Notes under the pieces: model-generated
Database searches by the model: none
Seen by the model: only the letters and a program-made list of their open reading frames with translations
What the model was told of the DNA's origin: nothing
Made by a program: the position numbers and the translations under genes
Shown: positions 582 through 11,882 of the stretch, piece by piece
Layout: each line of letters starts with the position of its first letter
How positions within the stretch are numbered: position 1 is the stretch's first letter
Source of the DNA: Alteromonas macleodii ATCC 27126
GTDB taxonomy: Bacteria > Pseudomonadota > Gammaproteobacteria > Enterobacterales > Alteromonadaceae
Length of the DNA stretch: 64,000 nt
Direction of reading: 5' to 3'
NCBI RefSeq assembly: GCF_000172635.2
Contig: NC_018632.1
Location: forward strand, 1,116,001-1,180,000

Positions 582-1667
582 ATGATTAGTGTCGCTTTTT
601 GCATAGATGATAAGTTTGCACCTTATGCGGCAGTTAGCGTAATTAGTATACTCTCCAATACAAAGTCATTTGTAAATATCTATTTTATAGGGAATTTGTC
701 AGAGGGAGTTAGAGAGAAACTGCTAACGTTAAAAAATGATAGATCAGCAATGGTTTTTGTGGCTCATAATTTACCTCTTTCGACCATGCCTTTGAGTGAC
801 CGTTATGTTGAACGGCTAAACAAAATAACATTTGTTAGATATGCTATTGCTGAAGTCTTAACAAAGTTAGACAAAGTCATTTATTTAGATGCTGATGTTT
901 TGGTTTGTGGAGATATTAAACGTCTATGGGAACAGCCCCTCAAAAAGTCATATGTGGGGGCCGTTTTAGATCACTCATTAATGTCACAGAAGCGACATAT
1001 TACTCTTTCTTTAAAATCAAAATCATATTTCAACGCAGGGGTGTTGCTTGTTGATTTGAAAATTTGGCGCGATAGGAGAATATTTCAATATCTGAGCCGC
1101 ACACATAATACTAGAGAAAGGTGGGAGTATAACGATCAAGACGTTTTAAATGTCGTACTTGATGAGAAAGTACAGTATTTGGGAGCAGATATGAATGTTC
1201 AGACCTATAGTTTGAAGCATATTAATATAAAAGAGCCCCTTATTGTTCATTTTACCGGCCAAGAAAAGCCATGGCATACTTCATCAGTGCACCCTTACAA
1301 AGACCAATATAGAGTGCTGCTTGAATCTGTTCCCTTTAAAAACAACAAGTTATCGCTATATCTTGATAAAGAGGATAGAACAATATTGGCAAGGTTAACT
1401 GCTCAATTTGAAAATGGCGGAAATTTGATCGTTTGGGGAGCGGGAGCTAGAGGTAGACGAATAGTTAAGGCTATAGAGCAAGAGTTTCCGGCTATTGTGA
1501 TTAAACAAGTTGTCGACACTTATCTTATAGGTAAATGTTTTTCATATCCAATTGTCTCTCCAGAAAATATGACAATCGAAGCAATTGATGCTGTTGTTGT
1601 AGCTACGCTTCCTCACAAACAAGACATCAGAAATTTACTACGCGATAAAGCGTTAACCGTTATATAG
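582..1667 (+). CDS. GT8-family glycosyltransferase with C-terminal Rossmann-like domain
   Basis: 361 residues. The N-terminal ~270 residues match the glycosyltransferase family 8 pattern (LgtC/GspA type): an opening strand of the MISVAFCIDD type and a YLDADVLV segment whose D103-A-D105 is the DxD motif that binds Mn2+ and the nucleotide sugar. Residues about 285-361 form a separate domain beginning with a WGAGARGRR dinucleotide-binding-like loop. The same kind of domain occurs in the next gene and in the LicD-like gene of this island. The likely role is transfer of a hexose to a surface glycan or the flagellin glycan; donor and acceptor are unknown. The gene is more AT-rich than the flagellar genes, which suggests transfer. 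The methyltransferase gene follows after 8 bases, so the two are probably co-transcribed. Confidence 0.8.
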   Translation: MISVAFCIDDKFAPYAAVSVISILSNTKSFVNIYFIGNLSEGVREKLLTLKNDRSAMVFVAHNLPLSTMPLSDRYVERLNKITFVRYAIAEVLTKLDKVIYLDADVLVCGDIKRLWEQPLKKSYVGAVLDHSLMSQKRHITLSLKSKSYFNAGVLLVDLKIWRDRRIFQYLSRTHNTRERWEYNDQDVLNVVLDEKVQYLGADMNVQTYSLKHINIKEPLIVHFTGQEKPWHTSSVHPYKDQYRVLLESVPFKNNKLSLYLDKEDRTILARLTAQFENGGNLIVWGAGARGRRIVKAIEQEFPAIVIKQVVDTYLIGKCFSYPIVSPENMTIEAIDAVVVATLPHKQDIRNLLRDKALTVI

Positions 1668-1675
1668 GAAGTTGT

Positions 1676-2620
1676 ATGTTTTATCTTTTTCCTTTCGGCA
1701 ATGTATCTCAAAATGAGGGGATTATTGTCTACGGGGCTGGCGCTATTGGCCAATCTTTCTTAAAGCAGCTTGAGGTAACTCTGCCTTTTGCTGTTATCTA
1801 CGTGACCGATAAGAAAATAGTATCGTCAAAAAAAGTCGGTAATGTTGTTTTTCTTCCGGAAAAAGATGTTTTTCAGCTTCCAGCTTATCAAATCGTCGTC
1901 GCGTCGTTAAAATTTGGTGAAGAAATCAAACAGCGTTTGATTCAACAAGGTATTGAGGCCGAGAGAGTTGTTATGCTTGCCGAAAATCATGCTATGGAAG
2001 AGAGCCAGTTTGAGCCGCATTCCTTTGACTGGAATGAATACTATAGCGATGCAGAAGGGCATAATGAGGTTCAATTTCAAACTTACCTCGAACCTCTTAT
2101 TCGAAAATATGACTTCAGTTTTTCCAGAGTAGTCGACTTTGCTTGCGGCAAAGGCCGGATTGCAGAACTCTTGAGTAGTTTCTCCGATTCTCTTGTTTGC
2201 GTTGATACCAGTCGCGAAGCGATCGATTATTGTGTCCAAAGATTTCGTGAAAAAAGCAACGTTGAGTGTATAGTTAGTGAACCAGAATGGATCCCTCTGG
2301 ATAAAAATAGCATTGACCTGCTTTACAGTTGGGATGCGATGGTGCATTTTGATTACAGAAGCATTGATTATATTTTAACTGGGTTTTCACGCATCTTAAA
2401 AAGTGGTGGATTTGCGGTTATTCATCATTCCAATGCAAGAGAGCATAATAGTTTCAAAGCAGATAAAAATTGGAGAAAAAATCCTCATTGTCGCAGCGAA
2501 TTTAACGCTAAAGATATGCGTCATTTGTGTGAAAAGAGTGGTTTCACTGTGGAAGAACAGCAAATAATGGATTGGGGGATAGAAGCACTAGATTGCATTT
2601 CAGTTATAAGAAAGTGCTAA
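1676..2620 (+). CDS. SAM-dependent methyltransferase with N-terminal Rossmann-like domain
   Basis: 314 residues. An N-terminal domain (about 12-105) starts with YGAGAIGQ and resembles the accessory nucleotide-binding-like domain in the neighbouring GT8 and LicD-like proteins. The C-terminal half is a class I methyltransferase of the Methyltransf_11 type: VVDFACGKGR is motif I, followed by an acidic residue in VCVDTS and a YSWDAMVHFD segment at motif IV. It probably O- or N-methylates a sugar of the surface glycan. It lies 8 bases after the GT8 gene and converges on pseC with only 32 bases between, where no terminator is visible. The substrate cannot be read from sequence. Confidence 0.75.
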   Translation: MFYLFPFGNVSQNEGIIVYGAGAIGQSFLKQLEVTLPFAVIYVTDKKIVSSKKVGNVVFLPEKDVFQLPAYQIVVASLKFGEEIKQRLIQQGIEAERVVMLAENHAMEESQFEPHSFDWNEYYSDAEGHNEVQFQTYLEPLIRKYDFSFSRVVDFACGKGRIAELLSSFSDSLVCVDTSREAIDYCVQRFREKSNVECIVSEPEWIPLDKNSIDLLYSWDAMVHFDYRSIDYILTGFSRILKSGGFAVIHHSNAREHNSFKADKNWRKNPHCRSEFNAKDMRHLCEKSGFTVEEQQIMDWGIEALDCISVIRKC

Positions 2621-2652: not shown

Positions 2653-3824
2653 TTACTTGCTATAAACGGTGTTGACTGCGTTTAAGAGCGTATCAACAAC
2701 CTGCTCTACTTCTTCTAGCGTCAAATCGGGGAATAATGGTAGAGTGACTGCTTGTTGATAGTAATTCTCTGCGTTTGGGTAGTCGCCTTTTTTAAAGCCC
2801 AAACTCTTGTAATGAGGCTGCAAGTGAATGGGGATATAGTGAACATGAGCAAAAATACCTCGCTCTCTCAGTTCGCTTATAAGCTTTGCGTGTTTGTCAC
2901 TATCTAGCGAATCCACTTTTACCACGTATAGATGATAACTTGAGTAGTTGTCGTTGCTCTGCGTTAGCGGGAAAATATTTGAGTAGGGGCGGAAAAGGCT
3001 GTCGTAATGCCTAGCTAAAATATTTCTCTTTTCCAAAAAATCTCCGAGTTTGTTTAACTGACTTAACCCAAGCGCAGCTTCTACGTCAGTCATACGATAA
3101 TTAAAGCCCAATGCTATCTGTTGATAGTACCAAGGGCCATGACTGTCCTCAGTCATCTTCTCTGGATCATTGGTTATGCCGTGACTGCGCAACATACGCA
3201 TCTTTTCAGCCCATTCACTGTTATTTGTAAGTGCCATTCCCCCCTCCATAGTGGTAATAATCTTTACCGGGTGGAAACTAAACACACAAATATCTGAGAA
3301 TTCGCAGCTGCCTACGAATTTCTCCTGGTATTTTGCGCCTACTGCATGTGATGCATCTTCAATAACAAAGAAGCCATATTGCTTTGAAAGTGCACGAATT
3401 TCTTTCATATCGCAGGGCTGACCAGCAAAATGAACGGGAATAACCACCTTTGGTAAGGCGTTGGTGGATTCAGCTAGGGCAAGTTTGTTTCGTAAAGCAT
3501 CAACGCACATGTTACCGGTGTAAAGGTCAATATCTACAAAATCGACCTTGGCACCACAGTAGAGCGCGCAGTTTGACGACGCAACAAATGAGTTCGGCGA
3601 TGTCCATACTCTATCGCCTTCACTCACACCTAGTGCAAGGCAAGCAATGTGTAGAGCAGACGTAGCGCTATTAACTGCAATCCCAAAATTAGCGCCACAA
3701 TAATCAGCAAGAGCGGTTTCAAATTTAGGAATAGCCGGGCCTTGCGTTAACCAATTTGATGTTAAGGTTTCGACCACAGCTTTTACATCATCTTCATCTA
3801 GGTGTTGTCGCCCATAAGGAATCA

Positions 3825-3825
<1 letters not shown>
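2653..3825 (-). CDS. pseC: UDP-4-amino-4,6-dideoxy-N-acetyl-beta-L-altrosamine transaminase PseC
   Basis: 390 residues, a DegT/DnrJ/EryC1 PLP aminotransferase. The opening MIPYGRQHLDEDDV, the LTQGP segment, NSATSALH and the SFHPVK motif (K188 is the Schiff-base lysine) are typical of PseC. The enzyme aminates the 4-keto sugar made by PseB, the second step of CMP-pseudaminic acid synthesis. The start is GTG, and its G is the last base of the pseB TAG stop (one-base overlap), so pseB and pseC are translationally coupled. It is the last gene of the leftward island. Confidence 0.93.
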
Positions 3826-4916
<1,091 letters not shown>

Positions 4917-5034: not shown

Positions 5035-5691
5035 TCAAAGACTGAGGGCTGGAAGTTCATTTAGGTTTTGTATTGTAAACTTTGCATCAAAACCTGGTTT
5101 TGCAGGTGCGTTTTTGTGAACCCCAGTTAGCACCCTAACAGTCGGCATTCCAAGTTTATTTAAATTAACGAAGTCTTTTGCTGGGTTGTCACCAATGTAA
5201 ACCATTTCGTGCCACTGACATTGTTCTGCTTGTTTAATCTTTTCAAAGCAGTAAGTAGAAGGTTTAGCATGTTGCACTCCAAAGCGGTGAGTGACAAACA
5301 CGCGCTTGAAGTAGTGCGCTATGTTGAGTGCTTCCACTTTCTTACTTTGTACTACTTTATTTCCGTCAGTGACGAGGTAAAGCGGCTTTGGCAAACGTTC
5401 TAGCAACGTTGGGTGATTGTCGGGCAAAGTCAAAGTGGGCTGGTGTAAGCGATATGCTGAAAGGCAGGCACGTACATTTCTCTTATTGACTGCTATGCCA
5501 TGGTTAGCTAAGTAATCATTGAAAATTCGGCCACGACCATTTCGATCAAGCAGAGTAACTAATTCTTGAAAGCCACTTCGCTTATCAACGTTCCAGGTTT
5601 TTTCCACAAATGAGGCAACCGCTGCAAGGCCAGACTCTACGTATTGGCGCTCATCATAAAGGGTGTCATCTAGGTCGAAGATATAAATCAT
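5035..5691 (-). CDS. HAD-superfamily hydrolase
   Basis: 218 residues. Motif I is FDLDDTLYDE at the N-terminus (nucleophile D6 and acid/base D8), a threonine-containing YLVTDGNK is motif II, and YIGDNPAKDF near residue 165-175 is motif IV. A helical cap follows motif I, as in the HAD-IA subfamily of small-molecule phosphatases. The ATG overlaps the stop of the ATP-grasp gene (ATGA), so the pair is coupled. The sequence does not say whether the substrate is a sugar phosphate, a polyol phosphate or an intermediate made by the ATP-grasp ligase. It is not a canonical pse gene. Confidence 0.75.
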   Translation of the reverse strand: MIYIFDLDDTLYDERQYVESGLAAVASFVEKTWNVDKRSGFQELVTLLDRNGRGRIFNDYLANHGIAVNKRNVRACLSAYRLHQPTLTLPDNHPTLLERLPKPLYLVTDGNKVVQSKKVEALNIAHYFKRVFVTHRFGVQHAKPSTYCFEKIKQAEQCQWHEMVYIGDNPAKDFVNLNKLGMPTVRVLTGVHKNAPAKPGFDAKFTIQNLNELPALSL

Positions 5692-6638
5692 AGGTAATAG
5701 TCGGTAGCAGCTCTAATCTGCGTTATTTTATGAGATGCGAGATCTACGGGCAACGAATCGATATCTACACCTATACTCTCACACAAGCTCCAATAAAGAC
5801 TATCAACACCCGCCTTGATCCCTAATGTTGAAGCGCCTCCAAATCGCGAATTACATTCAATGATGTGAAGTGCTCCATCATTTATGATGCCCTGTAATAC
5901 AACGGGGCCAGAGAGGGCTAGGTTGGAAAGTGTCTGTGTCACCTGTGCTGTAAAAGGGCAATTCGGTAAAGTATAAGTAATTTGGGATTCACCATTAACA
6001 ACTAAGTCTCGCACACGGCACACGGCCGCTTTAACCAAATGATCTTTTGTTAGCCAAGCGTCTACGCTAATTTCTTTACCTGCTTTGAATAATTGAAAAA
6101 TAGGGGAGGACAGACCTTTAGCGTGCTGGACTGCGTCGTTTTCATTTAGATTAAGGCCAACTGCTTTACTACCCGCACCAAAACGTTCTTTGACCACATA
6201 ATGCAATGGCTGAGTGTCCTGAACAACCGTTTTCACCTCTTCGATGCTTTCAAATGAAGGGATGATAAAAGGCATACTGCATTGGCCGAATCTTAATTTA
6301 TCTAAACAAAGCTCAATTGCACTTTCATTAGAAATAAGTACGTGAATGTTAGCGCTTTTTAGGTCATTTTTTAGCCTTGCCCAAAAAAGGAGTTCGCCGT
6401 CTCTACTTGGGAGAACATGAGTAATGCTTCGACGCTTGAGCTGGGCAATAATCTCATCTGCGTTTTCTTGTTTTGTGGGTGGCATTTGCCAAAAAACATC
6501 GCAAAAGTGTCGTGTGAGTACTTGGCTACTTAAATCTCCCGCCGTAACTATGCCTTTGTTATCGATACGCTTAACTGCGCATTGAAGCGCTCTTAATAGT
6601 GGAACTTTATTGCTGGCACTTGAAAGTAATACGTTCAC
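5688..6638 (-). CDS. ATP-grasp domain ligase
   Basis: 316 residues with a GTG start preceded by AAGGTG. The fold is ATP-grasp of the carbamoyl-phosphate-synthase type: VVKERFGAGSKAVGL in the middle holds the ATP-binding lysine and glycine-rich loop, and IIECNSRFGG near residue 260-270 has the Glu and Asn Mg2+ ligands. N-terminal residues 1-100 resemble the pre-ATP-grasp Rossmann domain (LPSRDGEL). Such enzymes form amide or thioester bonds through acyl phosphates. In a sugar island the simplest guess is attachment of an acyl or amino-acid group to an amino sugar. It is placed between the LicD-like gene and the HAD gene. Confidence 0.7.
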   Translation of the reverse strand: MNVLLSSASNKVPLLRALQCAVKRIDNKGIVTAGDLSSQVLTRHFCDVFWQMPPTKQENADEIIAQLKRRSITHVLPSRDGELLFWARLKNDLKSANIHVLISNESAIELCLDKLRFGQCSMPFIIPSFESIEEVKTVVQDTQPLHYVVKERFGAGSKAVGLNLNENDAVQHAKGLSSPIFQLFKAGKEISVDAWLTKDHLVKAAVCRVRDLVVNGESQITYTLPNCPFTAQVTQTLSNLALSGPVVLQGIINDGALHIIECNSRFGGASTLGIKAGVDSLYWSLCESIGVDIDSLPVDLASHKITQIRAATDYYL

Positions 6639-6665: not shown

Positions 6666-7574
6666 TCATTCACAAAGCGTGCGTTTTTGCACGCTTATAC
6701 CTGTTCTAGGTGCTGACATCGATGCTCTTCTATTTTCGTATTCCGTAATTTGTGTCGTCTTTTTGGGCGTTTGCCAATGTCCGTACATAAAAGTGAGAAA
6801 GCCTTCTGCATCGAATGGGGCAAGAAAGGTTTCACCTAAAAACTCGATTGGCTCGTAACTGTCGAAATGTGTAGCGGGGGCAAAAAACAGCCCGCCCGAG
6901 GACAAGAGTTCAGATAGACCATTTATCGACTCTCTGCGTTGTATGCTTATATCAAAAGGGACTAATTGGGTGTGAGATGAATTACTAAACTCTAGGTTAA
7001 TGCAACAGTCAATGTTGTTGACCGTGATAATGACGATATTCCATTTTACGTCATAGTTTGTGTTTAATAATTTATAAAGCTCAGGTAGCGATGCCTGTAA
7101 CCTTTCGTAATTGTCTTTATCTACAGCTAAATCTATATCGTCATCCCAAGGAATGAGCCCTTTATTTCTCACAGCACCTAGCAAAGTTCCAGAATCTAGA
7201 CACGCTGAAATGTTGTGGGAAACGAAGTATTGATTTAGCGTACGCATTACGGACTGGGCAAAGGCTAACGTTTCATTGTCTTCGAAAGGCAGGGCAGCTT
7301 TCACCGACTGCTTAGTCGGTACAATGATATTCGACTCATCAATACCCATTTCTTCGGTAAGTTGGGAATAGATTTGATCAACCCACTGACTGGTGATAAT
7401 TATGCTGTCGACTTCGTGAGTATTGATATCTGCGGGTGCAATGATGGGATAACCCATAAAACGAGTTCCGTGTTTCGCACTATCGTTATCCGTGAATGCC
7501 ACGACTTCTATATCTGGGTGATTAGAAACGTAGTTTTCTCCTGCCTTACTTGCACCGAACAGAATGGCTCTCAT
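6666..7574 (-). CDS. LicD-family phosphotransferase with N-terminal Rossmann-like domain
   Basis: 302 residues. Residues 1-85 form an accessory domain opening with ILFGASKAGENY and containing a FTDND segment. Residues about 100-250 are LicD/FKRP-like: SGTLLGAVRNKGLIPW is followed by DDDID (144-148), the metal-binding signature of this nucleotidyltransferase-fold family. LicD proteins transfer phosphocholine, and FKRP/fukutin transfer ribitol phosphate, from CDP-linked donors to glycans. The TagD-like cytidylyltransferase at the head of this operon could provide such a donor. The gene starts one base after the pseI stop. The transferred group is unknown. Confidence 0.72.
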   Translation of the reverse strand: MRAILFGASKAGENYVSNHPDIEVVAFTDNDSAKHGTRFMGYPIIAPADINTHEVDSIIITSQWVDQIYSQLTEEMGIDESNIIVPTKQSVKAALPFEDNETLAFAQSVMRTLNQYFVSHNISACLDSGTLLGAVRNKGLIPWDDDIDLAVDKDNYERLQASLPELYKLLNTNYDVKWNIVIITVNNIDCCINLEFSNSSHTQLVPFDISIQRRESINGLSELLSSGGLFFAPATHFDSYEPIEFLGETFLAPFDAEGFLTFMYGHWQTPKKTTQITEYENRRASMSAPRTGISVQKRTLCE

Positions 7575-7575
7575 C

Positions 7576-8625
7576 TCACAGTAGCTCCCAACTCATAGGG
7601 GTACCTTTTGGTGCGTCGCACTTGATTTGCTTTCCAAGCAAAAGGGGAAGGTATTTGGGAGGCAGTCCAAGTCCTGGACGAACAGAGCGTAAATTCTCCG
7701 CATTTAATGTATCGCCGGCTTTCATATCTTTGGCAATGTATAAAGAGCGTCGGTGTACCAACGAGGCCTTTTCTCGCTCGGTGGCGCCATAACTCACCTT
7801 GCCAATTGCTACCGCTGCCCGCGCCGTTTCCTCGACAAGCAGCTTAATTTCATGGGGTTCAAGAGAAAATTCTGCGTCGACCTCTCCGCCGTTTCTGTCT
7901 AAAACAAAATGCTTTTCAATGACTGTTGCGCCAAGTGCCACCGCAGCGACAGCTACCCCCACCCCCGGTGTATGGTCGGAAAGTCCAACATGACAGTTGA
8001 AAAGTTCGCTCAAATGAGGAATTGTCTTTAAGTTGGCGTCTACCGGGTTTGCTGGGTAATTACTGGTGCACTTGAGTAATATGATGTCATCACACCCATT
8101 GGAACGGAGTACTTCAACAGACTCGGCTATTTCTGCTTGGCTAGCCATGCCTGTAGAGACAATAACGGGTTTTCCTGTCTTTGCTACAGCCGCTAGGATA
8201 GCGTGGTCAGTATTTTCAAAAGACGCTACTTTGTAACAAGGAGGATTCAATGTTTCTAGGAAGTCGACAGCGGTTAAATCGAAGGGCGTGCTAAATGCTA
8301 ATAGGCCTTTCTCTTTGGCATAGTCGAATAGCTCCTTGTGCCATTCCCAAGGCGTCATCGCCTCTTTGTAGAGGTTATACAAAGAGTTTCCTTTCCAAAG
8401 ACTATTTGGGTCTTCAATAAAAAATTCGCCTTCATGACAATCCAAAGTGATCGTGTCTGGCGTATAGGTTTGCAATTTTATGGCATGTGCGCCAGCGTCT
8501 GCAGCTGCATCAATGAGTCGGTAGGCTTTTTCTAATGATTGTCCATGATTTCCAGACATTTCTGCGATGATAAAGGGAGCGAGACCCGGACCAATTTGAA
8601 TATCACCGATTGTGATTGGTTTCAT
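7576..8625 (-). CDS. pseI: Pseudaminic acid synthase PseI
   Basis: 349 residues. An NeuB-type TIM barrel (about 1-270: IIAEMSGNHGQSLEKA, AIKLQTYTPDTIT, FSTPFDLTAVDFL, GLSDHTPG) is followed by a C-terminal antifreeze-like SAF domain (about 285-349: RRSLYIAKDMKAGD). The enzyme condenses 2,4-diacetamido-2,4,6-trideoxy-L-altrose with phosphoenolpyruvate to give pseudaminic acid. The FSTPFD and GNHG segments are those of PseI rather than of sialic acid synthases. It stands between pseG (2 bases) and the LicD-like gene (1 base), within a tight operon. Confidence 0.92.
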   Translation of the reverse strand: MKPITIGDIQIGPGLAPFIIAEMSGNHGQSLEKAYRLIDAAADAGAHAIKLQTYTPDTITLDCHEGEFFIEDPNSLWKGNSLYNLYKEAMTPWEWHKELFDYAKEKGLLAFSTPFDLTAVDFLETLNPPCYKVASFENTDHAILAAVAKTGKPVIVSTGMASQAEIAESVEVLRSNGCDDIILLKCTSNYPANPVDANLKTIPHLSELFNCHVGLSDHTPGVGVAVAAVALGATVIEKHFVLDRNGGEVDAEFSLEPHEIKLLVEETARAAVAIGKVSYGATEREKASLVHRRSLYIAKDMKAGDTLNAENLRSVRPGLGLPPKYLPLLLGKQIKCDAPKGTPMSWELL

Positions 8626-8627
8626 GA

Positions 8628-9710
8628 CTACCTCGTTACAGTGTTCAATATAGTATCCATTACAAAAGATGGATTTTTGTTTGCGCTCACCAAAGATACC
8701 GCGTTGTTTGCTAGTTTACGCATTTCTTGCGGGAAATTTATCGCAAATTCAACGGCCTTGCTAATATCTTCATTTGTGACCTCGTCACATGCTCCTAGCC
8801 ACAAACAGCAATGCCGTTCGTGCAAGCACCGCGTCGTTTCAACTTGATTATCAGCCAATGTGATAATTATGCCCGCTACCCCCGATGCCGCGCGCTCCCA
8901 GTGCATCGAACCTCCAGCGCCAATCATTATATTGGCGGCTTTCATAAGCTCGGATATGTACCCGCAAGCGACATGAAGCTTCGCGTTAGGTAGGCGTTCA
9001 ACTTTTGCTTTAAGCGCACTAACGCCGGAATAAGCCGCTCCGACAACAATATCGGCTGAAAAAGTTAAAGACTTTAATTCAATCAAAACATCAACGACTC
9101 GCTCTGTTAAATTCCCAGGGTCGCTGCCGCCAAAGCAGACTAGAATATGATTGTCATTTCTAGGCATTGGTGGTACGTGGTAAAACTCATTTCTCAAAAT
9201 AGCGAACTCAGGTCCTAAAAGTTTTTGGCAATGAGGAGGGACAAGAAGATCGTATCGGAATTCAAAGTCCTCAAAGAGGTTTTGGTCCAAAATCACGTCA
9301 CAGTCGTGCTGGCGGTTAGCTAAATCGTCAATGACAACAATATGTTTGCAGCGACTGCGCATTACTTTACTAAACGAAGCTGATAGCTGATAGTGGTCGA
9401 CTATGAGCATGTCGATAGGCTCATCGTTCATATCATCAAGAAGCGCTATACAGTGAGCAGCATGAGAGGCTTGCTCTGCTTCATTCAAGACTGCCGAACC
9501 ATTACCTGCCCGTTCGCCTTTATGAAGCGATGGCGTGGTCAATGTTGTAATTCCAGCACGCTGTATCTGTTGTTGTAGAGTTGAAGGCAACGCACAACAA
9601 AGGAATGTTACGTTGTGTGAGGGAAGTAATTGTGTGGCCAAGGTTAAGCAACGCATAACGTGGCCGAGTCCTATTTGCGCTGTACCATCGACCCTAAAAA
9701 CAATCCTCAC
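8628..9710 (-). CDS. pseG: UDP-2,4-diacetamido-2,4,6-trideoxy-beta-L-altropyranose hydrolase PseG
   Basis: 360 residues. It is a GT-B-fold nucleotide-sugar hydrolase: the N-terminal GLGHVMRCLTLA contains the catalytic histidine, and FGGSDPGNLTERV in the second half binds the diphosphate. It releases UDP before PseI acts. The GTG start overlaps the pseF stop (GTGA). I looked for a fused acetyltransferase, because some PseG proteins carry PseH; the C-terminus ends within the GT-B fold and shows no GNAT-like extension, so PseH is not here. Confidence 0.9.
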   Translation of the reverse strand: MRIVFRVDGTAQIGLGHVMRCLTLATQLLPSHNVTFLCCALPSTLQQQIQRAGITTLTTPSLHKGERAGNGSAVLNEAEQASHAAHCIALLDDMNDEPIDMLIVDHYQLSASFSKVMRSRCKHIVVIDDLANRQHDCDVILDQNLFEDFEFRYDLLVPPHCQKLLGPEFAILRNEFYHVPPMPRNDNHILVCFGGSDPGNLTERVVDVLIELKSLTFSADIVVGAAYSGVSALKAKVERLPNAKLHVACGYISELMKAANIMIGAGGSMHWERAASGVAGIIITLADNQVETTRCLHERHCCLWLGACDEVTNEDISKAVEFAINFPQEMRKLANNAVSLVSANKNPSFVMDTILNTVTR

Positions 9711-10411
9711 TTTACGCTTTCGCTCTGCAAAAGCTTGTAAAGCAGTTCAGCTCTAACCCAATCTTCAGGTGTATCAATGTCTTGCACTAAGTGGTCTGGC
9801 ATTACTACCATTTTAGAGTTGGCACCGAAAATACGTTTAGTAGTATCAAGCCAGGTTTTTTGATGGCCCCAATACAACTGTCCTGCATCATGGAAGGCTG
9901 GTGGTAAATCCTGTGAGCGCTGAGTAATGCCAAATTCGTCAAAAGGTTTTACGCCGCCATTTTCGGTTTGTAATATCGCCCGTTGAATTGGAAATGAGAA
10001 TCTTGCCGCTGTAAATACGTAGTCTGTATTGTCAGCGTTCATTAGCATTTCATAGCAAGAATTAATTAAAGAAGTGGTCAGAAGAGGCGATGTTGCATAT
10101 ACACAGGCGCAATAATTTATATCCCAGCCTTTTTCTAACAGAGTGCTCAATGCATGGCGAACCACAGGACTAGTGCCTGTGTAATCATCTGCTAATTCTA
10201 CAGGTCTCATGAATGGCACCTCAGCACCATAATCTCTTGCTACGTTCGCAATAGATTCATCATCTGTTGAAACCACTACTTTGTCTACATAGGGGCTTGC
10301 CAACGCATTTTCTATTGCATGGGCAACCATAGGTTTACCGCAAAACGGTTTTATATTTTTTTTAGGAATGCGTTTGCTTCCGCCCCTTGCGGGGATTATG
10401 GCTACGTTCAT
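9707..10411 (-). CDS. pseF: Pseudaminic acid cytidylyltransferase PseF
   Basis: 234 residues, of the CMP-NeuAc-synthetase type. The N-terminal IPARGGSKRIPKKNIKPF binds CTP, followed by GKPMVAHAIENAL and VVVSTDDESIA. It activates pseudaminic acid to CMP-Pse, the donor used by the flagellin transferase. The stop overlaps the GTG of pseG. Upstream, 46 bases separate it from the TagD-like gene, so it is probably read from the same promoter. Confidence 0.92.
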   Translation of the reverse strand: MNVAIIPARGGSKRIPKKNIKPFCGKPMVAHAIENALASPYVDKVVVSTDDESIANVARDYGAEVPFMRPVELADDYTGTSPVVRHALSTLLEKGWDINYCACVYATSPLLTTSLINSCYEMLMNADNTDYVFTAARFSFPIQRAILQTENGGVKPFDEFGITQRSQDLPPAFHDAGQLYWGHQKTWLDTTKRIFGANSKMVVMPDHLVQDIDTPEDWVRAELLYKLLQSESVK

Positions 10412-10457
10412 TTACTTTTTCCGTTCAAAAAAGGCTAGCTCGAATCTGACAGCGAGC

Positions 10458-10913
10458 TCAAAGCCGCTGCATCAACGCATTTAAATGCTCTGTTAGACTT
10501 TGTAATTGGCGAATTTTCTCGTTTTGAATTTCGCTGATAACGGTTTTTAGTTCAGTTGTAGAGACATCTTGTGTGCGCGGTAGATACACAACTTTAACAA
10601 TATCTTGCAGATCATCGAACTTTCCAATCCAGTCATCACCCATCGCGAATATGTCAGCGCCTTCTCGCTCAAGGTCTTCTCGTTTCTGTTCCCAACAGTT
10701 TTCTTGAAATACATCGTCGACATAACGGCAGGAGAGCAAAATTTCTTTTCTGTCTTCATATGGTATGACTACGTTTTTACCTTTTACCGTATTGAATTCA
10801 TCAGAGGACAAGCCAACCACTAGCCTATCGCCTAAGCTGTGTAATCGCTTTAAAAGCCTTACATGCCCTATATGAAAAAGGTCGAAGGTGCCGTACGTCA
10901 CCACAGTAGTCAT
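10458..10913 (-). CDS. TagD-like cytidylyltransferase (glycerol-3-phosphate cytidylyltransferase family)
   Basis: 151 residues from the ATG at 10913. A longer frame from 10964 adds 17 residues ahead of the conserved start and runs through the candidate promoter. TYGTFDLFHIGHVRLLKR holds the HxGH motif, and RTQDVSTTELK near residue 120 is the RTxxxSTT signature of TagD/GCT enzymes. The family makes CDP-glycerol or related CDP-alcohols from CTP. It is the first gene of the leftward island; together with the LicD-like protein it could supply and transfer a phospho-alcohol. The C-terminal ~30 residues are a predicted helix beyond the usual TagD end. Confidence 0.8.
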   Translation of the reverse strand: MTTVVTYGTFDLFHIGHVRLLKRLHSLGDRLVVGLSSDEFNTVKGKNVVIPYEDRKEILLSCRYVDDVFQENCWEQKREDLEREGADIFAMGDDWIGKFDDLQDIVKVVYLPRTQDVSTTELKTVISEIQNEKIRQLQSLTEHLNALMQRL

Positions 10914-10938: not shown

Positions 10939-10981
10939 ATTGTACACCCATAACTTATCGGCAAGTCAAACTATTCCATGA
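10939..10981 (-). promoter_or_regulatory. Candidate promoter of the leftward Pse island (sigma-28 and/or sigma-70)
   Basis: On the minus strand GCCGATAA (10962-10955) matches the sigma-28 -10 in all eight positions. TCATG upstream fits the Pseudomonas-type -35 (TCAAG) only partly. The same stretch also offers a sigma-70 reading: TTGACT (10969-10964), a 19-base spacer and TACAAT (10944-10939). Either would start about 25-45 bases before the cytidylyltransferase ATG. Confidence 0.4.
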
Positions 10982-11087: not shown

Positions 11088-11882
11088 ATGCAAGTTAATA
11101 GTTCAACATCCTCACTTCTCAGCCAAGTGCAAGAGAAGCAAGAATCCTTGATGGAAAAGCTTGCCAGTGGTAAGAAAATTAACGATGCAACTGACGGCGC
11201 AGCGGCCCAGCAAATCATCGATCGGTTAACTTCAGAAGTAGAAGGCAACCGCCAGGCTATTAATAACGTTTACGACGGAATTTCGGTGGCGCAGGTTGCA
11301 GAGGGTGGTTTAGGCAGCATCAATGACGATGTAAACCGCATTCGCGAACTTACCTTACAATCTGGTAATGGTGTTTTGAGCAGTGGCGATCGCCGTGCTA
11401 TCCAATCTGAAATAACACAGCTACAAGAGAATATCTCCCAAACCATTGAGCAGACGAATTTTTCTGGCAAGCCGTTATTATCTGAAAATGGCTCACTTGA
11501 ATTCCAATCAGGTTCAAGTGCGGGCCAATCAATAAGCGTCAACACACAGGATGTTGCTGCTCAATTAAACGATGTACTGGCTATCGATATTACGTCGGGA
11601 ACCAGCATTGAAGATGCGCTAGGTGCAACTGATGCTGCAATTGAAACGCTCGGTAACGCGCGAGGCGATTTAGGTGCTACCCAAAACCGTTTCGAAAGTG
11701 CGGCGCGTTCTCTTACTCAAGCTAACGTGAACACCGCTGAAGCGCGTAGCCGCATTCAAGATCTTGATTTTGCTCAAGCTGTGTCACAGCAGGCGTCAAA
11801 CGATGTGCTTGGTCAGGCGGCGCTAACCGTTCAAGCGCAAGCGAATCAGCAGCAAAGTCAGGTTTTATCACTGTTGAGTTAA
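11088..11882 (+). CDS. Compact flagellin
   Basis: 264 residues. The N-terminal D0/D1 helices (KLASGKKIND, DGISVAQVAEGGL, VNRIRELTLQSGNG) and the C-terminal helix (RIQDLDFAQAVSQQ through QANQQQSQVLSLLS) are those of flagellin. The start MQVNSSTSSLLS departs from the usual flagellin opening, and KLASG lies at 24-28 rather than near 31-35, so D0 is a few residues shorter. The variable D2/D3 region is almost absent. It has AGGA before the ATG and its own terminator. It is probably the filament protein or a minor flagellin glycosylated with pseudaminic acid. No clear sigma-28 promoter was found upstream. Confidence 0.85.
   Translation: MQVNSSTSSLLSQVQEKQESLMEKLASGKKINDATDGAAAQQIIDRLTSEVEGNRQAINNVYDGISVAQVAEGGLGSINDDVNRIRELTLQSGNGVLSSGDRRAIQSEITQLQENISQTIEQTNFSGKPLLSENGSLEFQSGSSAGQSISVNTQDVAAQLNDVLAIDITSGTSIEDALGATDAAIETLGNARGDLGATQNRFESAARSLTQANVNTAEARSRIQDLDFAQAVSQQASNDVLGQAALTVQAQANQQQSQVLSLLS

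Follow-up and report, generated by a model that had tools for sequence, protein, structure and literature searches.

A TagD-LicD gene pair, accompanied by an ATP-grasp/HAD cassette, in the flagellar pseudaminic acid operon of Alteromonas macleodii: a probable glycerol phosphate decoration of flagellin glycans

The polar flagellin of Aeromonas piscicola AH-3 bears a longer glycan with a pseudaminic acid (Pse) derivative as the linking sugar and phosphate (+80 Da) on N-acetylhexosamine, and the main text of the same study describes variable transferases, including phosphotransferases, and PseG-PseH chimeras in the group II islands of Aeromonas (PMC7874193). Here we describe an operon, tagD-pseF-pseG-pseI-licD-ATP-grasp-HAD, that is part of the flagellin glycosylation island of Alteromonas macleodii ATCC 27126 and lies in the 64,000-nucleotide stretch that was analysed (G000:C1:1116001-1180000 of a 4.65 Mb single-contig genome; hereafter the window). 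We consider it fairly probable that its TagD-like protein makes cytidine diphosphate (CDP)-glycerol from cytidine triphosphate (CTP) and glycerol-3-phosphate and that its LicD protein would use this donor to put glycerol phosphate onto the flagellin glycan, where the donor, the acceptor and the modified sugar are all inferred from sequence.

On the minus strand the genes run in the order tagD, pseF, pseG, pseI, licD, ATP-grasp and HAD, followed by pseB and pseC. The seven genes from tagD to HAD are all intact and form one tight operon next to a flagellin gene: by the coordinates of the open reading frames (ORFs), TagD and PseF are 46 bp apart, PseF and PseG overlap by 4 bp, the PseG/PseI, PseI/LicD and LicD/ATP-grasp gaps measure 2, 1 and 27 bp, and the ATP-grasp and HAD frames overlap by 4 bp. 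The canonical set for cytidine monophosphate (CMP)-Pse is present, with PseB, PseC, PseG and PseI over their NCBIfam cut-offs and PseF recognised via Pfam, and the genome holds single copies of LicD (PF04991), Maf-type PF01973 and PseI (E<=1e-70). An initial annotation of this DNA had described a TagD-like (HxGH, RTxxxSTT) and a LicD (DDDID) protein around pseF, pseG and pseI, followed by ATP-grasp and HAD genes. All of these genes are present and the motifs were found; the last two genes both lie to the left of the interval 6666..10913 that it had delimited.

The translated window TagD contains the motifs FHIGH and RTQDVSTT. Its ORF as listed starts from a TTG at 10964, and the ATG that opens MTTVVTYGTFD sets the start at 10910. 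Residues 3-125 align with the glycerol-3-phosphate cytidylyltransferase of Bacillus subtilis, 1COZ (129 residues), at 144.5 bits (E=1.8e-41), whereas among solved structures no choline-phosphate cytidylyltransferase exceeds 42 bits and the score for an ethanolamine-phosphate enzyme is 78 bits. Because the glycerol-3-phosphate enzyme scores so far above the choline-phosphate enzymes, glycerol is likelier than choline as the alcohol handled by TagD, and CDP-glycerol is its most likely product. The operon TagD is the only TIGR01518 match in the window genome at E<=1e-20.

The transferase combines a LicD part with a Rossmann part at its N-terminus, has the DDDID motif and is 98% identical to a large protein cluster and 76% identical to a protein of Alteromonas sp. 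345S023. Over the DDDID region the profile of its family hits fukutin-related protein (6kaj, E=4.7e-7), and a Rossmann-type chain (3nkl, E=1e-6) is matched as well. Fukutin-related protein transfers ribitol phosphate from CDP-ribitol. Using a 48-member LicD profile, we surveyed a family set of 98 genomes and a genus set of 59 genomes, counting in the latter only matches below 1e-70 (the weaker G137 and G147 were left out). The subfamily was detected in 18/98 family genomes and 15/59 genus genomes, 14 of them new, giving 32 in total. Measured by coordinates, 31 of these 32 genomes have pseI no more than 11.3 kb from LicD; in the remaining one, G138, pseI is found in two pieces directly beside LicD. 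The distance between TagD and LicD is at most 15.0 kb in 15/32 genomes, and in seven of these (G044, G096, G023, G058, G082, G009 and G093) it is only 24-110 bp. In six others of the 32 (G047, G075, G123, G133, G115 and G149), LicD adjoins a different set of genes, namely a fusion of PntC with phosphoenolpyruvate (PEP) mutase, the phosphonopyruvate decarboxylase Ppd and an iron alcohol dehydrogenase. These family names were verified on G047 alone, where the alcohol dehydrogenase is under the PsrA cut-off, and were carried to the other five by BLAST. In the six relatives the phosphonate cassette and LicD lie inside flagellar pse islands (L108, L118, L198, L199, L200 and L201), and the three enzymes are likely to supply a CMP-phosphonate for a flagellin-glycan phosphonate.

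The transferase is exchanged as well. Seven genus genomes without a LicD match (G106, G118, G153, G141, G142, G120 and G107) hold, at a pse locus bordering a flagellin-like gene, a protein of 482-515 amino acids that scores 125-133 bits against PF04464 (cut-off 22.1), the CDP-glycerol glycerophosphotransferase family. TagD is present in all seven, and in G106 and G118 it is 78 and 96% identical to that of the window and sits at the equivalent position next to the flagellin-like gene. One donor enzyme is thus paired with two transferases of the CDP-glycerol type that are unrelated to each other, and LicD in turn with two different donors. This swap is the strongest argument that the group moved by LicD is an activated phosphorus unit, here presumably glycerol phosphate.

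The same association is seen at the level of whole genomes. In the family set, in comparisons that ignore kinship, TagD occurs anywhere in the genome in 18/18 genomes with LicD versus 32/80 without (Fisher p=8.8e-7), and among genomes with a PseI over cut-off in 18/18 with LicD versus 22/54 others (p=2.7e-6). In the genus, TagD is present in 18/18 genomes that have either LicD without phosphonate genes or the PF04464 protein, versus 25/37 of the rest (p=0.004); two of the four genus phosphonate genomes have it. The operon has a defined gene content and order and a conserved co-occurrence with donor and transferase genes that are interchangeable, and support for the phosphodiester reading is good, though it comes from genome comparison rather than from chemistry. 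The transfer of phosphate from a CDP-alcohol to the flagellin glycan by LicD, as the initial annotation had suggested, gains from the proximity of LicD to pseI, from its TagD or phosphonate partners and from the PF04464 swap; among the alcohols that it had listed, glycerol is now favoured over choline, with ribitol as a possible alternative.

The second part of the proposal concerns the ATP-grasp and HAD genes, and the best clue to the role of the ATP-grasp enzyme is the absence of pseH, which the initial annotation had passed over. No protein of the window genome exceeds the PseH cut-off, the best TIGR03585 match reaching 34.9 bits versus the 93.1 required. A fusion of PseH to PseG was considered and rejected; the window PseG of 360 amino acids has no GNAT-profile match. 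The ATP-grasp family keeps an invariant ECN.RFGGAS stretch (alignments A3 and A4), and the HAD gene directly follows the ATP-grasp gene in 12/12 close loci. The order pseF-pseG-pseI-licD-ATP-grasp-HAD is found in the window and in 11 other genomes, so the arrangement is not due to chance. In the genus there are 11 loci of this order, including the window, all of them beside flagellin-like and flrA-like genes; the twelfth cassette locus is that of G062, in whose stretch a flagellin was not seen. PseH or a related GNAT was found in none of the 12 cassette stretches, and the genome-wide search covered the window genome and G062 only. Within the family set, 16/18 LicD genomes have PseH (E<=1e-12) no further than 1.6 kb from pseI; these same two are the only ones that lack it there. 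The ATP-grasp protein was matched in 6/98 family genomes at E<=1e-8, closely only in these two and at 24-26% identity in the other four, two of which, G040 and G093, carry a HAD gene next to it.

In a tree of 86 PseI proteins, which left out L197 to L202 and L124 (without PseI), L009 to L011 and 16 later loci and hence does not contain G138, 11 cassette loci group together with weak support (61/43) within a clade of 22. The other 11 loci of this clade all have PseH or a GNAT, an acetyltransferase being called by BLAST to PseH at >=29%, by BLAST to the GNAT of G068 at >=30% or by any GNAT-profile match. G068, which is near on the tree, has its GNAT exactly where the window has licD, and in G081 (L226; PseI 78%) a GNAT stands beside pseI. 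The simplest reading would be one gain of the cassette and one loss of the acetyltransferase. The HAD phosphatase would then perhaps supply a small acid to the ATP-grasp ligase, which would form an amide on the 4-amine of the uridine diphosphate (UDP)-sugar, the site that PseH usually acetylates, and the resulting Pse derivative would carry a 7-N-acyl group other than acetyl. An amide on Pse made by the ATP-grasp enzyme is plausible; that this enzyme replaces PseH and yields a non-acetyl amide we propose only tentatively.

Several observations weigh against this replacement. The cassette fits a single, weakly supported origin on the PseI tree, so the PseH absences are not independent, and a class-wide search recovered the window genome alone at E<=1e-45 among 369 genomes (at most five candidates scored per genome in the rows listed), giving no independent replication. 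G040 has, next to pseI, an ATP-grasp/HAD pair of distant kinship (23 and 25%) together with a PseG-GNAT fusion, and another such pair (25 and 28%) lies in a LicD-TagD island of G093 that contains PseH. Ten other pseI loci on the tree lack both a detected PseH or GNAT and a close ATP-grasp protein, one of them (L175) having a hexapeptide acyltransferase, and the same holds for four of the 16 later loci (L221, L224, L225 and L230). Finally, members of the ATP-grasp family occur as natural fusions with a GNAT or a nucleoside diphosphate (NDP)-sugar epimerase (P0202, P0203, P0208, P0219 and P0225; P0169 and P0204), one of the GNAT parts giving a weak PseH match of 22.3 bits; these fusions place the family in nucleotide-sugar pathways.

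The alternative for this part of the operon is that the ATP-grasp and HAD enzymes add a further acyl or aminoacyl group and that a GNAT encoded elsewhere in the genome acetylates the 4-amine in place of PseH, a possibility that we see as almost evenly balanced. It would agree with the coexistence of distant ATP-grasp/HAD pairs and PseH and with four weak TIGR03585 matches in the window genome, the best of which comes near the 36.9 bits of the pse-locus GNAT of G068. On inspection by eye, however, the two best of the four resemble RimJ and RimI enzymes. The idea of a close G068 GNAT copy at the four best GNAT loci of the genome was rejected for want of any match; used as a query, this protein also found nothing in the window or in the 40 kb to its left, and the GNAT profile found nothing in those left flanks or in window positions 20001-64000.

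A few features of the cassette loci were recorded alongside. In G138 (L197:7553-9633), pseG and pseI are each in two pieces beside an intact LicD-ATP-grasp-HAD run, reflecting decay or an assembly error. Within the domain of the G116 ATP-grasp protein (L166:11380-12438), the six residues LDTHQS are repeated in frame about seven times. Two ATP-grasp-cassette loci (L157:15527-17683 and L197:12206-14371) encode proteins of 718 and 721 amino acids with CxxxCxxC, seen by eye, and a radical SAM-like look, and L158 has an ORF of 719 amino acids at the same place.

Returning to the proposed transfer of glycerol phosphate by LicD, some findings speak against it. The window TagD scores 148.1 bits on TIGR01518, under the curated cut-off of 165.4, and the PF04991 match of LicD is confined to profile positions 3-73 of 227, with the C-terminal half of the protein unmatched. 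Eleven of the 32 LicD genomes have neither TagD nor phosphonate genes nearby and possess only unlinked TagDs, which may serve another polymer. Lastly, a scan of named genomes with the LicD alignment gave 80 loci, of which three (L009, L010 and L011) match the Rossmann-LicD protein over most of its length and stand outside all LicD counts, and 77 were not used. Among the three, Aliidiomarina L009 (9424-10918) has a 41% identical LicD beside a TagD (61% to that of the window), and the 20.9-kb stretch showed no recognisable pseI or flagellin gene, so LicD and TagD are not tied to Pse everywhere. At Pseudomonas composti L010, LicD has flagellin genes and a NeuB-like gene (32% to PseI) in its vicinity, and at Glaciecola L011 PseH and lux-like genes are present, LicD is in two pieces and the stretch has no pseI.

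It is improbable, in our view, that the transferred unit is instead another CDP-linked group, such as ribitol, ethanolamine, an amino acid or a phosphonate. The sub-threshold TIGR01518 score and the pairing of LicD with the phosphonate route in six genomes would fit such a unit, and CDP-threonine has been proposed in Clostridioides difficile type A, as its available text describes (PMC10714395). Against it, the solved structures nearest to TagD are glycerol-3-phosphate enzymes, in four relatives (G062, G093, G096 and G112) a TagD located up to about 15 kb from LicD does pass the TIGR01518 cut-off, and PF04464 proteins hold the locus in relatives. Quite unlikely is a service of TagD and LicD to some other surface polymer (O-antigen or capsule) with a place in the flagellar pse cluster by chance: the usual targets of the two proteins are lipopolysaccharide, capsule or teichoic acids, many surveyed genomes have TagD away from pse and the L009 pair lacks recognised pseI and flagellin genes, but pseI accompanies LicD in all 32 LicD genomes, whole or in pieces, the operon is framed by flagellin genes, Maf and an flrA-like gene, and the window genome has one pseI and one LicD.

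The coordinates of the operon and its neighbours are collected in the table.

Table. Genes of the window in and around the operon, with profile scores in bits
Feature	Coordinates	Strand	Support
TagD-like cytidylyltransferase, likely CTP:glycerol-3-phosphate cytidylyltransferase making CDP-glycerol	10458..10910	-	TIGR01518, 1COZ
PseF, CMP-Pse synthase	9707..10411	-	PF02348 109.5 (Pfam only) and pse gene order
PseG, UDP-sugar hydrolase, 360 aa	8628..9710	-	TIGR03590 259.4, cut-off 153.55
PseI, pseudaminic acid synthase	7576..8625	-	TIGR03586 487.8, cut-off 340.25
Rossmann-LicD protein, proposed CDP-glycerol:glycan glycerophosphotransferase	6666..7574	-	PF04991 69.0, cut-off 22.6
ATP-grasp carboxylate-amine ligase, proposed N-acyl ligase replacing PseH	5688..6638	-	PF02655 31.9, cut-off 23.2; PF15632 34.3, cut-off 29.1
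HAD-IA phosphatase, start overlaps end of ATP-grasp gene	5035..5691	-	PF13419 49.7, cut-off 23.8
PseB	3825..4865	-	TIGR03589 550.2, cut-off 407.75
PseC	2653..3825	-	TIGR03588 550.2, cut-off 423.5
Flagellin-like gene bordering the operon	11088..11882	+	PF00669, PF00700
GT8 glycosyltransferase, far side of the cluster	582..1667	+	PF01501 161.1
Methyltransferase	1676..2620	+	PF13649 55

To the right of the operon the flagellin-like gene is followed by an FlrA-like regulator of 488 amino acids (by eye). The 20 kb to the left of the window contain flgI to flgL, two flagellins, fliD and fliS, named by eye, together with, by Pfam, a Maf protein of 1114 amino acids (PF20157, PF01973), a GT2 protein, a methyltransferase-glycosyltransferase protein and a sulfotransferase. 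A PF00685 sulfotransferase is encoded at L002:19199-19894, and a second, sulfotransferase-like P-loop gene at L002:15696-16844 was recognised by eye only and matches nothing in Pfam; sulfation of the glycan is therefore a further possibility. Several transferases of the islands (window 582-2620; L002:14485-16844) seemingly have an additional Rossmann-like region that resembles the N-terminus of LicD; hhalign comparisons gave weak probabilities of 58, 32 and 31% for the three tested, and no match to this domain was found in the PF04464 protein.

It is tempting to generalise these observations into a picture in which marine gammaproteobacterial Pse flagellin glycans carry exchangeable phosphorus head groups, with an ATP-grasp amide ligase replacing PseH in one Alteromonas clade, a combination that we regard as somewhat unlikely to hold in full. 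The head groups would be glycerol phosphate, moved by LicD or the PF04464 protein, and a phosphonate, probably 2-hydroxyethylphosphonate, moved by LicD from a CMP donor. If true, sugars with phosphodiester and phosphonate groups would be exposed on marine bacterial flagella. Such sugars could account for phosphate that is still unassigned on flagellin glycans, could form a protein-bound part of the marine phosphonate pool and could present a variable surface target for phages and grazers. Relatives appear to exchange donor and transferase parts at their flagellar sugar cluster, including a likely phosphonate version, and the locus offers a direct test case for the substitution of PseH by an ATP-grasp ligase in the Pse pathway.

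In the literature searched, which covered few subscription papers, no match was found for LicD with pseudaminic acid and flagellin or with flagellin glycosylation. Within that scope the cassette is undescribed and constitutes a new variant of flagellin glycan decoration. In Aeromonas AH-3, phosphate on a Pse-bearing flagellin glycan is already known, whereas the main text mentions no LicD, glycerol, cytidylyl or ATP-grasp function and its available passages do not trace the phosphate to an enzyme (PMC7874193). Islands of Geobacillus likewise have Pse genes without a PseH orthologue and, in one strain, tagD; there, in contrast, tagD stands with phosphatidylglycerophosphate synthase, and LicD and ATP-grasp go unmentioned in the available text (PMC5109656). 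The work on PntC deals with nucleotide-activated phosphonates and with LicD-like transferases nearby, and with Fom1 as a fusion of a cytidylyltransferase and PEP mutase, although its available text makes no mention of flagella (PMC6697681). As for the ATP-grasp enzyme, the gene SO_3265 in the sfm locus of Shewanella oneidensis affects flagellin modification, and the inner sugar there resembles a Campylobacter nonulosonic acid; the ATP-grasp protein is larger, however, at 412 amino acids, and phosphate is not mentioned in the text available (PMC3765264). A putative ATP-grasp carboxylate-amine ligase is also present in the flagellin glycan locus of C. difficile type B, where the glycan is a sulfonated peptidylamido structure with N-acetylglucosamine (GlcNAc) and rhamnose and where, in the accessible portion of the report, Pse appears for Campylobacter only (PMC5207246). 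C. difficile type A offers a cytidylyltransferase and a TagF-like transferase, proposed in the available text to attach a phosphodiester-linked group to a flagellin sugar, which differs from the glycerol phosphate proposed here in being an amino acid group, phospho-N-methylthreonine on GlcNAc (PMC10714395). The transferase there is TagF-like, that is, of the PF04464 type, whereas the window has LicD, and it is a PF04464 protein that stands at the pse locus of the seven relatives.

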